The notes beneath the pieces were generated by a model, which saw only the letters and a program-made list of their open reading frames with translations, made no database searches and had not been told where the DNA came from. A program made the position numbers and the translations under genes. Shown piece by piece: positions 19,543 to 24,727 of a stretch of 64,000 nt of DNA; position 1 is the first letter of the stretch, and every line of letters starts with the position of its first letter. The DNA is taken from NCBI GenBank assembly GCA_014825775.1, contig MVAQ01000018.1, forward strand, positions 62,001-126,000, written 5' to 3'. This stretch comes from Krasilnikovozyma curviuscula (lineage: Eukaryota; Basidiomycota; Tremellomycetes; Cystofilobasidiales; Mrakiaceae).

Positions 19543-20658
19543 TTATATCTTATCTGCCGGGACAGGAGTTACAAACGCCAAGTCCTTGTAGTTCTTGAGT
19601 TCTCGGATTGAAGCCAGGATATCATCCTTTGCACGGTGAGCAACGACACCTTGATCTTCACGCGCGTCACGCTCCTTCCTTAAACGACTTGTCAAAGCAG
19701 CTGAAAACAAATAGTCCTTGTCAGTACATCGAAGAGAAAGAACACATAAAATCGCTCACGGTTCCATCTTGAAACGAGTTCCTTGACCGTGCTAACGTCA
19801 ACAATCCTATAGTGCATATGATTGACCAGCTCCTGATAGTGAGGGTCCGCTTTGAGAAACGCCATATCAGCATGAACAGATGATCCCGCCAAAATGCCGA
19901 TTCTCTCCTCAGGGATCCATTTCTTGACGTATGCAAGCACTTCAGAAGCGACGAAGTCGGCCGCGTTTGGTGATGCGAGGCAGGCCGCTGTGAGGCCCGT
20001 CTGAGGAAACAAATGAGGGGTCAGTGAGGAGCACAAGAACAATAGGGATCAATATAAAAATCCAATGAACCTTGCCGTGCATGTCTGTACACCATTCGCC
20101 CATGCTTTAGGAAACAGTCTTGTTAGTGTAGAGTGAGATTTGGCGACGTAGTGAGTGCGGTGCTTACCCATCGAGCACCTCCTTTGGCGTTTGAATTACA
20201 AACTCAATACCTTCGTCTACGCAGTTGAGGTTTCCATCTGTAATGATGACGGCAATCTGTTGAAGTAAAGTGAGTTAACGGAAGACTTAAAAGGTTGCTA
20301 AACCTCTTTGACGCACCTCGATGATCCTGTCCGTTTTCAGGTCCACTGAGATAAATAAGACGGTCAGTATCCACCTAAGTGCGTGTAAAATTACAATCCT
20401 TGAGGTAGTTGCTCACACTGAATAGGACAAGAAACACATCAGCTTCGTCCTCGGTGTGGAAATGACGAAAGGACAGATACTCACTCCAGTCATCTTTGCA
20501 ATCATAAACGGAACACAACAGTCTGTTTAGCTAACTAGACCATTCATTCGTGGCAGCTCTAGCGTTGGACTCACTTCACAATCGATCCAAATCAATCCAC
20601 CGTCACTCTTTGCTAGAGGAGCAGTTCTACCAATCTTGAGATCCTTTGTAGCCTCCAT
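19543..20658 (-). CDS. Oligoribonuclease (DEDDh 3'-5' exonuclease, REXO2/Rex2 family)
   Basis: Degrades short RNA oligomers in mitochondria and cytosol. Eight exons from ATG 20658: 20575-20658, 20485-20493, 20417, 20317-20345, 20168-20256, 20071-20104, 19760-20000 and 19543-19700. They sum to 645 nt, 214 aa, in a closed frame. Motifs are LIWIDCEMTGLDLKTDRIIE (DE of motif I), IAVIITDG, GEWCTDMHGK, SSVHADMAFL (motif II), HYRIVDVSTVKEL (motif III D), and VAHRAKDDILASIREL (motif III H and D). The exon giving M-T-G is 9 nt and the next is a single T, both with consensus splice sites. The open frame continues upstream of the ATG, so a longer N-terminus, perhaps a mitochondrial presequence, is likely in one isoform. 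Confidence 0.9.
20417..20417 (-). other. Candidate single-nucleotide exon of the oligoribonuclease gene
   Basis: On the minus strand the base T sits between acceptor cctattcag and donor gtgagc. The intron before it (20418-20484, 67 nt) starts GTGAGT and has a GCTGAT branch-like site. The intron after it (20346-20416, 71 nt) has ACTGAC and ends atctcag. Inclusion gives the conserved E-M-T-G-L-D. Leaving it out shifts the frame. The only alternative I found is a GTATCT donor four bases downstream of the normal one, giving E-M-T-G-V-M-D. Confidence 0.6.
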
Positions 20659-21862: not shown

Positions 21863-24727
21863 ATGAAGGCTGCGCTCCCTCTCTCACTGCTGGCTCTGCT
21901 GGGTCAAGGGCTGAACTCAGTCCAGGCAGCAGCCTTTGTACAGGAGCGAATACGAGGTGAAGGCGGTCAGGTCGTTCTCGGTGCAGACGGATCGAATCCA
22001 GGTGATGGATCATCAGGTTCATCAAGTTCAGCTACCGGAGAGAATTTAGAAGCAGATTTATCCGTCGGAGTGATGAAAAGTAAAAGTGAGGACTATCTCG
22101 AATTGAGGAGGTGCAACCCATTCATACATGGAGTGTAAGCTAACGGTCTGATTCAATACTTTTTAGAGCTTCACGGCCGATTCTTACAGTTAGTAACATT
22201 CCATTCTTGATTGAGGGTTCCTACTGGCTCTTAAAAAAAAAACCATACACTGATGGAATTTTTTGTGTTGACAAAAATACAACAGCATCACCGACATCCA
22301 CCCTGATCCTTGGTACCTCAAAGGATCGTCCGTCGAGTCGGGTTGCCACGTCAAGGAGAAGAAGAAGCTTCTCACTAATACAGGTGACAAGGAAAAGGAC
22401 AATGATGGCCTTGCTGGCTACTGGGGTAATGCGGTCTCGTAAGTCTCCAAAATCAATTATTTTGGGCTTAATTGTCCTGTATGAAGCATGAAGAGCAGTT
22501 GGGATACTGTCTTGATTTCTTCTGAGCGTTCTTTCCCACTCTGGATTGCTTACACCTCCTGAGCTGGTCAAGAATGTTATAACGTGGGGCAATCAATATT
22601 CACTGACTTGCTTTTGTTTTGCCAGGGAATGTGATACACCCATCTCACTCATGAACCTCACTTTCGACTGGATCGAGAAAAATATCGCTGACGAGGTTGA
22701 CTTCGTTGTTTGTAAGTACCCAACTATGCGCAATCCCTGACGCCGCCACTGCAGATTCCGCCTGACAGGGCCCCATTTTATAATTCTAGGGACAGGAGAT
22801 AATGCCCGGCATGATATTGATAGAACAATTCCTCGAACACCGAAGGAAATCTACAATCTCAATCACATGGTAACCGATCGAATGTTGAACATTTTCACGA
22901 AGAGGAAGATTGGTGTCGTTCCCAGTGTTGGAAACAATGATGTCTTCCCCCACAACATCATGTTCCCAGGTCCAAGCGATGTTATAAGGAACTATCTGAC
23001 GTGAGGCTCTAACAAAAAACCGTCCTTTTTATTCCATCAACTGATAGTTTACTCACGAAACTTTTCCATCGCGTCTCCCCGTAGTACATGGAAGAAATTC
23101 ATTCCCTTCGCCCAGCAACACACATTCGAACGTGGTGCTTACTACTCAGTTGAAGTCATCCCAGATCAGCTAGCTGTTATCTCCCTCAACACCTTGTACT
23201 GGTACGACACCAACAAAGCCGTCCAAGGCTGCGCGATGGGTTCCAAGCAGCCTGGTGCCATGGAATTGGATTGGCTAGATGTTCAACTAGAGATGTTTAG
23301 AGATCGAGGTTTGATGGTTTGGTTGAGTGGACATGTACCGCCGTCCAGTCAAAATTACTTCAAAGATTGCTACTCAAGGTATGGGGAGTTGATGCTGAGG
23401 TATCAGGACATCATTGTTGGTCAGCTGTACGGCCACATGTACGTTTCCGTTTTCGCATGGTCAAAATACAAGTTTTTCTATGGTTTACTGACAGCGACTC
23501 CTATTGGTATTTCGCAGGAATATGGACCACTTCTTCATGATTGACTCAAACTCTCTGGCAGACTTTGCTCTCTCTGGCGACAGCAAAGCCAAAACCAAGT
23601 CAACAAATTCGAAAGAGAAAAAGAAGTTATACGACCCTTCAGCTCCTTTCAACACGACCGACCTACCCGACTTCAGAATCACCAAAGATCGAACGAAGAC
23701 CGGTTCTCTTGAAGGCGACTTGCTGCAGTTCTTTGACGACAACATCCCCAACAAAGAATCGAAGCTTTGGGAAGAAGACTGGAGTGTCGTAAATGTCTCG
23801 CCTAGTGTGATTCCAACGTACCTCCCTTCTCTGAGGGTTTACAGCTACAACACTACTGGAACACCTTATATCCCAGGAGAAGGTGATCTGGAACCTCCGA
23901 GACCAAATCCTGATGATGATAAAGAGCTGGAAGATGGTGATGAAGATGATGACGAGGCTGATTTTGAGGTCGTCGATGACAACGAGTACGACGACGAAGA
24001 CAGTTCAGAGGAAGACATGATGAAGAAGAAAAAGAAGAAGAAGAAGAAGAAACCTGTTGTCAGTATATTCTACGTCATATCTTTGATGTTCCTGGCCTTA
24101 CGACCATTTTCTTGGCTCCTTAGCGCATGGTGGGGGATAAGTACTGTCGCAAATTGAAGAACAGGTTAAAGAAGAAATGCCAACCCGCAGTTCCAAGAAA
24201 TCATTCACCATCGTCGCCTAGTCGTACCAACAGGCTCTTCACTGCCCTAGGGTACGCTCAGTTCTACATCCCAAGCTTGAACCACCCCAAGAGTAAACCA
24301 CCGACGTGTACGTTGCTTTCCTCCTAACTTTCTTTGGCTTGCAATCAGCTCCTTCTTTAACCTTGCTTTGGTAATTTCTCTCAGTTCAACTCGAATACGC
24401 AACATATACACCCACAGCTCTTTATCCGAAGAACAAGCTCAATGAGCCGCCGATTCCACCGCATCTCCTCCCATCCAACATAACAGCTAGCATAGAGGAT
24501 GAAAAGATTGTGTTGTACGACATGCACGATCTCACGATCGGGTCTTACCTTGAGTTTGGGAAGTCGTTGACCAAAAACAAGAAGAGCTGGAAGGAGTTTT
24601 TGCGCTTCATTTATGGTGAGTCATAGTCTCTCTTTATTGTTCCTTTTGTTGTTTTGCCATGCTTACCCTAATTACTCTCATGATTCAAGTGAGCACCGGA
24701 GCTGAAAAAGACAATTTCACCATTTGA
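21863..24727 (+). CDS. PPN1: Vacuolar endopolyphosphatase (Ppn1 family)
   Basis: Cleaves inorganic polyphosphate in the vacuole; calcineurin-like metallophosphoesterase. Ten exons (21863-22079, 22167-22188, 22286-22438, 22626-22711, 22790-23000, 23085-23438, 23518-24058, 24124-24307, 24385-24615, 24690-24727) sum to 2037 nt, 678 aa, closed frame. Start chosen at the ATG of a signal-anchor, MKAALPLSLLALLG. Metal motifs in order: KLHGRFLHITDIHPDP, WTGDNARHD, SVGNNDVFPHN, WLSGHVPPS, QLYGHMNMDHF. Near the C-terminus a D/E/S-rich stretch runs directly into a poly-lysine block (residues about 520-570), unlike the rest of the protein. A 22-nt exon at 22167-22188 encodes most of LHGRFL. Transcribed divergently from the oligoribonuclease gene. 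Confidence 0.93.

Follow-up and report, generated by a model that had tools for sequence, protein, structure and literature searches.

A candidate one-nucleotide exon in the leucine-wedge codon of an oligoribonuclease gene from a tremellomycete fungus

One thymine, read on the minus strand at position 20417 of the window (the whole 64,000-nucleotide stretch of Krasilnikovozyma curviuscula DNA considered here, part of a 22.4 Mb assembly in 387 contigs), is very probably a constitutive single-nucleotide exon that would lie between two U2-type introns removed one by one and would complete the codon for Leu32 of an oligoribonuclease (Orn/REXO2). That an acceptor (cctattcag) and a donor (gtgagc) directly flank one base is confirmed at the sequence level, just as the initial annotation had reported, and the interpretation of this base as an exon is the best supported of those tested. 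The T is required both for the reading frame and for a leucine that is conserved in 279 of 280 sequences. If the interpretation is true, a second fungal phylum gains an example, tied to a particular gene, of an exon that could not be smaller, placed in the codon of an active-site residue whose mutation disables a bacterial homologue, and the mechanics of splicing at two sites separated by a single base can be tested in a compact genome of short introns, both introns here being of normal size. In addition, Orn can be misbuilt by gene finders that set a lower limit on exon length, since my own model predicted an incorrect active site once it was denied exons of less than 3 nt, and the deposited models of three named relatives (Tremella, Cutaneotrichosporon and Naganishia) are also damaged at this motif.

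The gene occupies positions 20658-19543 on the minus strand and, judged by family score (191 bits on NCBIfam NF003765 against a cut-off of 106) and motif spacing, its predicted product is an oligoribonuclease. It opens with an 84-nt exon 1 (20575-20658, from the ATG to ...WIDCE), followed by the 81-nt, phase 0 intron 1 (20494-20574), which separates DCE from MTG, and by exon 2, a 9-nt microexon ATGACTGGA encoding M-T-G (20485-20493). Intron 2 (20418-20484, 67 nt) runs from GTGAGT to cctattcag with a predicted branch-site motif AGCTGAT at 20438-20444, whose branch A at 20439 lies 21 nt before the acceptor end; the candidate exon 3 is the single T at 20417; and intron 3 (20346-20416, 71 nt) runs from GTGAGC to tatctcag with a predicted branch-site motif TACTGAC at 20363-20369, whose branch A at 20364 lies 18 nt before the acceptor end. 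The remainder consists of exon 4 (20317-20345, 29 nt), intron 4 (20257-20316, 60 nt), exon 5 (20168-20256, 89 nt), intron 5 (20105-20167, 63 nt), exon 6 (20071-20104, 34 nt), intron 6 (20001-20070, 70 nt), exon 7 (19760-20000, 241 nt), intron 7 (19701-19759, 59 nt) and exon 8 (19543-19700, 158 nt, stop included). With the T included the eight exons sum to a closed frame of 645 nt and a predicted protein of 214 residues in which the conserved motif is kept (WIDCEMTGLDLKTDRIIE), whereas omission of the T breaks the frame, which then ends at MTGWT-stop. The first exon sizes (84, 9, 1 and 29 nt), their positions, the branch sites on both sides and these two consequences for the frame had all been proposed from the letters of the window, and all were reproduced; the proposed "84+" becomes 84 nt if the ATG at 20658, the first in-frame ATG after a stop, is the start.

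Several smaller features of the locus can be recorded here. The gene model merges Orn with upstream exons (22022-20575), lengthening exon 1 to 20947, and a plus-strand gene starts at 21863, upstream of Orn. The donor of intron 6, GTTCAT, is weak and odd (4th percentile of 598 predicted introns), and the homologous HGK-TGL join requires it; the Orn gene can tolerate poor donors, since intron 6 uses this one. A protein search of the fungus's own genome detected no second copy of Orn, its four exon matches all falling in the same gene, and a pseudogene reading was rejected in view of the intact 645-nt frame across eight exons.

The ranking of possible splice patterns was obtained with a splice and gene model that trained itself on 264 kb, made up of the window and a further 200 kb from this genome, and that gave 88 genes and 598 introns, with an intron score that counts donor, branch site, acceptor and length; the training set was the model's own gene predictions rather than RNA, and the results are therefore to be read as rankings and not as calibrated probabilities. 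Predicted introns have a median length of 74 nt, a 90th percentile of 112 nt and a 1-99% range of 55-369 nt, so that 67 and 71 nt are typical, and the description of the flanking introns as normal in size holds for two complete introns that both score at the 86th percentile of the 598 (12.12 for intron 2 and 12.14 for intron 3; 12.09 and 12.08 when rescored with the Orn gene left out of training). All splice patterns between the donor at 20574 and the acceptor at 20256 were then enumerated, allowing GT or GC donors, introns of 35-320 nt and at most four internal exons, and dropping later donors that scored under -9. On splice and coding scores, without protein homology, the parse containing T20417 ranks first of 5,470 in-frame parses with 14.18, followed by 10.32 for a parse giving MTGCEQLPQGLIIE, 9.07 for one in which the T is kept and exon 2 is skipped, and 6.65 for one giving MTGDLD. 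The sequence MTGLD is otherwise given by three parses, all of which use T20417 and score -2.9 or less.

The same base stands out when the search is widened. With one-base exons allowed throughout, T20417 is the sole one called among 665 introns in 88 genes (before overlap removal), exons of 2, 3 and 4 nt being called once each in that run, and in a permissive re-run (82 genes, 611 introns) it is the sole exon of 2 nt or less. By combined acceptor, branch and donor score it is the strongest of 1,864 AGNGT sites on both strands (528 kb). Its split score was reached by none of 20,000 Markov middles and none of 20,000 genomic middles in a first run, by none of 75 predicted introns of 100-300 nt, and in a larger Markov null by 18 of 600,000 middles, five of them with a T or C that would keep the leucine. 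T is not the favoured base at donor position -1 (22% vs 43% for G). Of the 518 internal exons predicted across the window and the added stretches of the genome, 31 do not exceed 15 nt, a count from which microexons may be common in this genome.

What the T would supply is the first base of TTG, the remaining TG coming from exon 4, and the placing of this base in the active site agrees with the identity of the codon as Leu32, the equivalent of the wedge residue L18 of Vibrio Orn. In the Vibrio enzyme D12 and E14 are part of the DEDD motif, L18 (L21 in human REXO2) acts as a wedge that separates the two bases of the substrate, and the alleles listed as catalytically inactive include L18A (PMC6613908); the matching residue has been named the L-wedge (PMC8492067). 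Ungapped alignment to REXO2 (6n6i) places D26, E28 and L32 on D15, E17 and L21 with the spacing of the structure, and because this spacing is the same, T20417 can be taken as the first base of the leucine-wedge codon. The census of relatives comprised 224 distinct proteins from two listings (the best 120 of 1,146 and the best 120 of 129), of which 200 cover residues 26-37 and the other 24 were left out, including the Tremella mesenterica protein P0122, which begins at the M of MTGLD and hence falls outside this coverage, together with 80 bacterial loci (the best 80 of 318 relatives in genome contigs, all with bacterial titles). Residue 32 is Leu in all 80 loci and in 199 of the 200 proteins, the remaining one having Ile, and when the residue after Gly/Ser31 is read directly among the 196 proteins in which the motif was found, it is Leu in 195 and Ile in one. 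The loci were partly chosen by the pattern IWIDCEMT, which biases conservation before Gly31 and leaves Gly31 and Leu32 themselves outside the pattern. Insertions or deletions were flagged near the motif in 6 of the 200 proteins and 12 of the 80 loci: one residue just after position 32 in five proteins, one residue after position 34 in the 12 loci, and three extra residues after position 28 in P0127. Since one-residue insertions do occur near the motif, length alone does not exclude the rival splice patterns.

One of these rivals had been put forward alongside the one-base exon, namely a single 135-nt intron whose donor GTATCT at 20480 would follow a 13-nt exon 2, and the one added residue claimed for it was reproduced (215 aa, MTGVMD); it needs no one-base exon to close the frame, and its branch site and 3' end both score well. 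However, its donor scores -2.90, below all 598 training donors (partly by construction, as training was cut at -1), and even with thresholds relaxed a donor at or below -2.86 occurs in 1 of 611 introns and a C at +5 in 2 of 611; the length of 135 nt scores at the 5.2 percentile, and the whole parse reaches -1.65, 15.8 nats under the T20417 parse. In its favour, the GTTCAT donor of intron 6 shows that a weak donor is no bar to use in this gene. At the protein level Leu32 is replaced by Val, seen in 0 of 280 sequences at that place, with an inserted residue besides, and 7.6 bits are lost on the NCBIfam Orn model (183.4 against 191). It is highly improbable, and as the competing model it stands only in part: it closes the frame, but it is outscored by other rivals that had been overlooked, namely exons of 23 and 10 nt, a 4-nt GATT exon and the skipping of exon 2, each of which changes the motif and falls short of the one-base exon in score.

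Among these, the 4-nt exon GATT (20398-20395), preceded by an 86-nt and followed by a 49-nt intron, would be in frame and keep LD after an inserted Asp (MTGDLD), but its score lies 7.5 nats under that of the one-base exon, a 49-nt intron falls below the first percentile (55 nt) with lengths of 49 nt or less in 1 of 611 introns, and an insertion between Gly31 and Leu32 is flagged in 0 of 280 sequences; I consider it less credible again than the GTATCT intron. The second-best parse, 3.9 nats lower than the first, has one exon of 23 nt (20417-20395) and another of 10 nt (20326-20317) and is what the gene model chooses when exons under 3 nt are barred, but neither the conserved Leu32-Asp33 nor the distance to IIE is kept, and position 32 becomes a Cys that is found in 0 of 280 sequences, so that it is scarcely believable and the least likely of the three. 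As an observation apart, the end of intron 3 (20374-20346), read in frame after MTG, gives V-D-T-D-R-L-I, which resembles the true LDLKTDRII, its T-D being supplied by the intron 3 branch site; DNA likeness between this intron end and exon 4 is low (raw local score 5.0).

How could such an exon be spliced? On the favoured explanation introns 2 and 3 would be two ordinary U2-type introns one base apart that share neither donor nor branch site nor acceptor, and each short intron would be recognised as a unit by intron definition. Their removal would be sequential, because sites so close together, with a single base between them, probably leave no room for two spliceosomes at once, an argument made likewise for the APC11 gene by Guo and Liu (PMC4674806), and in the first step the pre-mRNA beside the T would act as a temporary exon. 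Joining of the T to the TG of exon 4 would then yield the codon of the leucine that serves as wedge in the active site of the dinuclease, and mis-spliced transcripts bearing a stop would presumably be discarded. Six faulty products were considered, and five meet an early stop (the T skipped; intron 2, intron 3 or both retained; exon 2 and the T skipped together), while skipping of exon 2 alone keeps the frame and deletes MTG. The direct skip from 20484 to 20346 makes a passable intron of 139 nt (8.95, 39th percentile, with its length scoring at the 2.3 percentile), and some skipping of the T is accordingly to be expected.

This passable skip could also be put to use by the cell, in that inclusion of the T would give active enzyme and its regulated skipping an early stop and less Orn, which would add to the main explanation rather than replace it. 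The score of the skip intron and the stops that follow both skipping and retention of either or both introns speak for it; however, any frame-breaking microexon would behave alike, and I consider this addition unlikely. Similarly, since five of the six mis-spliced forms meet a stop and working Orn would be made only if both introns are exactly removed, the gene could conceivably act as a sensor of splicing fidelity that ties the disposal of RNA dinucleotides to the performance of the spliceosome, a speculative idea that I hold to be a shade more doubtful still.

One-base exons have been described before, and the original assertion that they are extremely rare in any eukaryote is in this respect too strong: very rare they are, but they have been published in plants and in Fusarium and mentioned for Cryptococcus. 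For the single-nucleotide exon of Arabidopsis APC11 there is proof from cDNA and from mutated reporters (Guo and Liu, 2015; PMC4674806), and this exon resembles the Orn case in that one base between two canonical introns is required for the frame of a single-copy gene; it had been missed by annotation, and intron definition and recursive splicing were proposed for it (PMC4674806). It differs in being from a plant and in its assigned intronic stretch of 422 nt, whereas the Orn introns of 67 and 71 nt are typical and the Orn case stands at the level of sequence. The plant VPS55 microexon of 1 nt is land-plant-wide, has RNA-seq and RT-PCR proof and was, like that of Orn, missed in reference annotations (PMC8831610). 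A fungal case is the one-nucleotide exon of Fusarium CYP621A, which recurs across many Fusarium genes and is supported by 18 SRA reads (Nelson and Syed, 2026; PMC12940212); as in Orn, one base lies inside the codon of a conserved motif, in a stretch that at 139 nt in F. graminearum is more than double the length usual for an intron (PMC12940212). There the base is the central one of a Gly codon in an ascomycete, whereas in Orn it is the T of a Leu codon in one basidiomycete genome. Finally, 1-bp exons are mentioned for Cryptococcus neoformans var. grubii in one sentence, which names no gene (Janbon et al., 2014; PMC3990503); Cryptococcus shares with the present fungus the class Tremellomycetes and very intron-rich genes. 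The 2026 paper claims the first fungal one-nucleotide exon (PMC12940212), a claim that sits beside this sentence of 2014. The kind is consequently already known, even within the class, and the open-access literature searched shows no earlier case in this gene or at this residue; by the same measure, no nuclear one-base exon of Basidiomycota would have been assigned to a named gene and residue before this one. Spliceosomal twin introns (stwintrons) are also alike, in that two introns are removed successively from a composite stretch, but in a stwintron the whole stretch goes, whereas complete removal breaks the Orn frame. A stwintron reading was rejected on the early stop that follows full removal and because the first donor is preceded by an A where the [D1,2] type needs a G.

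The history of these introns is read here from the proteins of relatives. No related Orn loci were found in viral contigs, the best 80 of 318 loci in genome contigs included no fungal DNA, and no Orn protein more than 60% identical over most of its length was present among the matches listed. The deposited models of relatives break at the DCE-MTG motif: that of Tremella mesenterica (P0122) starts at MTGLD, the VDCE present in Cutaneotrichosporon P0002 is missing from P0124 of that species, and Naganishia P0024 reads WIARLKEGTGLD at the motif. These breaks suggest that intron 1, which precedes the ATG of exon 2, is old in the class, and comparison of the protein models P0002 and P0124 lets us infer that its position is shared with Cutaneotrichosporon. 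The damaged models P0122, P0124 and P0024 also point to missed microexons elsewhere in the class, and the metagenomic protein P0121 begins MFSI-GLDVEKD, as if in another relative an intron ended in or beside the Gly31 codon. P0134, from a contig of up to 23 kb, is continuous from MTGLD across the places of introns 2 to 6, and its tail suggests a frame read without splicing, in which case introns 2 and 3 would have been gained in the lineage of the window or lost in that of P0134. No likeness between introns 2 and 3 was detected (local score 8.0 against a shuffle mean of 7.7, p 0.475), which leaves a tandem duplication of one intron unsupported. The 139-nt stretch has no second match in its own genome at E <= 10 (a search that scores loose-first-look candidates only), and membership of an introner family is likewise unsupported.

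In the Orn tree (43 rows picked) the window sequence groups with Mixia (84/85), outside a clade of 19 tremellomycetes, a result that does not place it. The neighbouring ETF dehydrogenase gene has 18 named sequences among its 20 best matches, at 69-76% identity, all from tremellomycete genera, and the first other named fungus is Rickenella at 66%. The ETF dehydrogenase tree (quick method, 30 rows picked, no bootstrap) joins the window with Phaffia (SH-aLRT 97), and in it the Tremellomycetes are not one group, the starred branches forcing at least two changes; Phaffia rhodozyma and Cryptococcus are both Tremellomycetes by taxonomy look-up. On these comparisons the source is probably a tremellomycete close to Phaffia and may belong to the Cystofilobasidiales. 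Furthermore, FF domains (Pfam PF01846), which occur in PRP40, were matched six times at two places in the fungus's own genome (L106, L107; C1, C68). PRP-40 is required for microexon splicing in worms (PMC8378409), and the genome may encode a candidate helper factor for the splicing of microexons.
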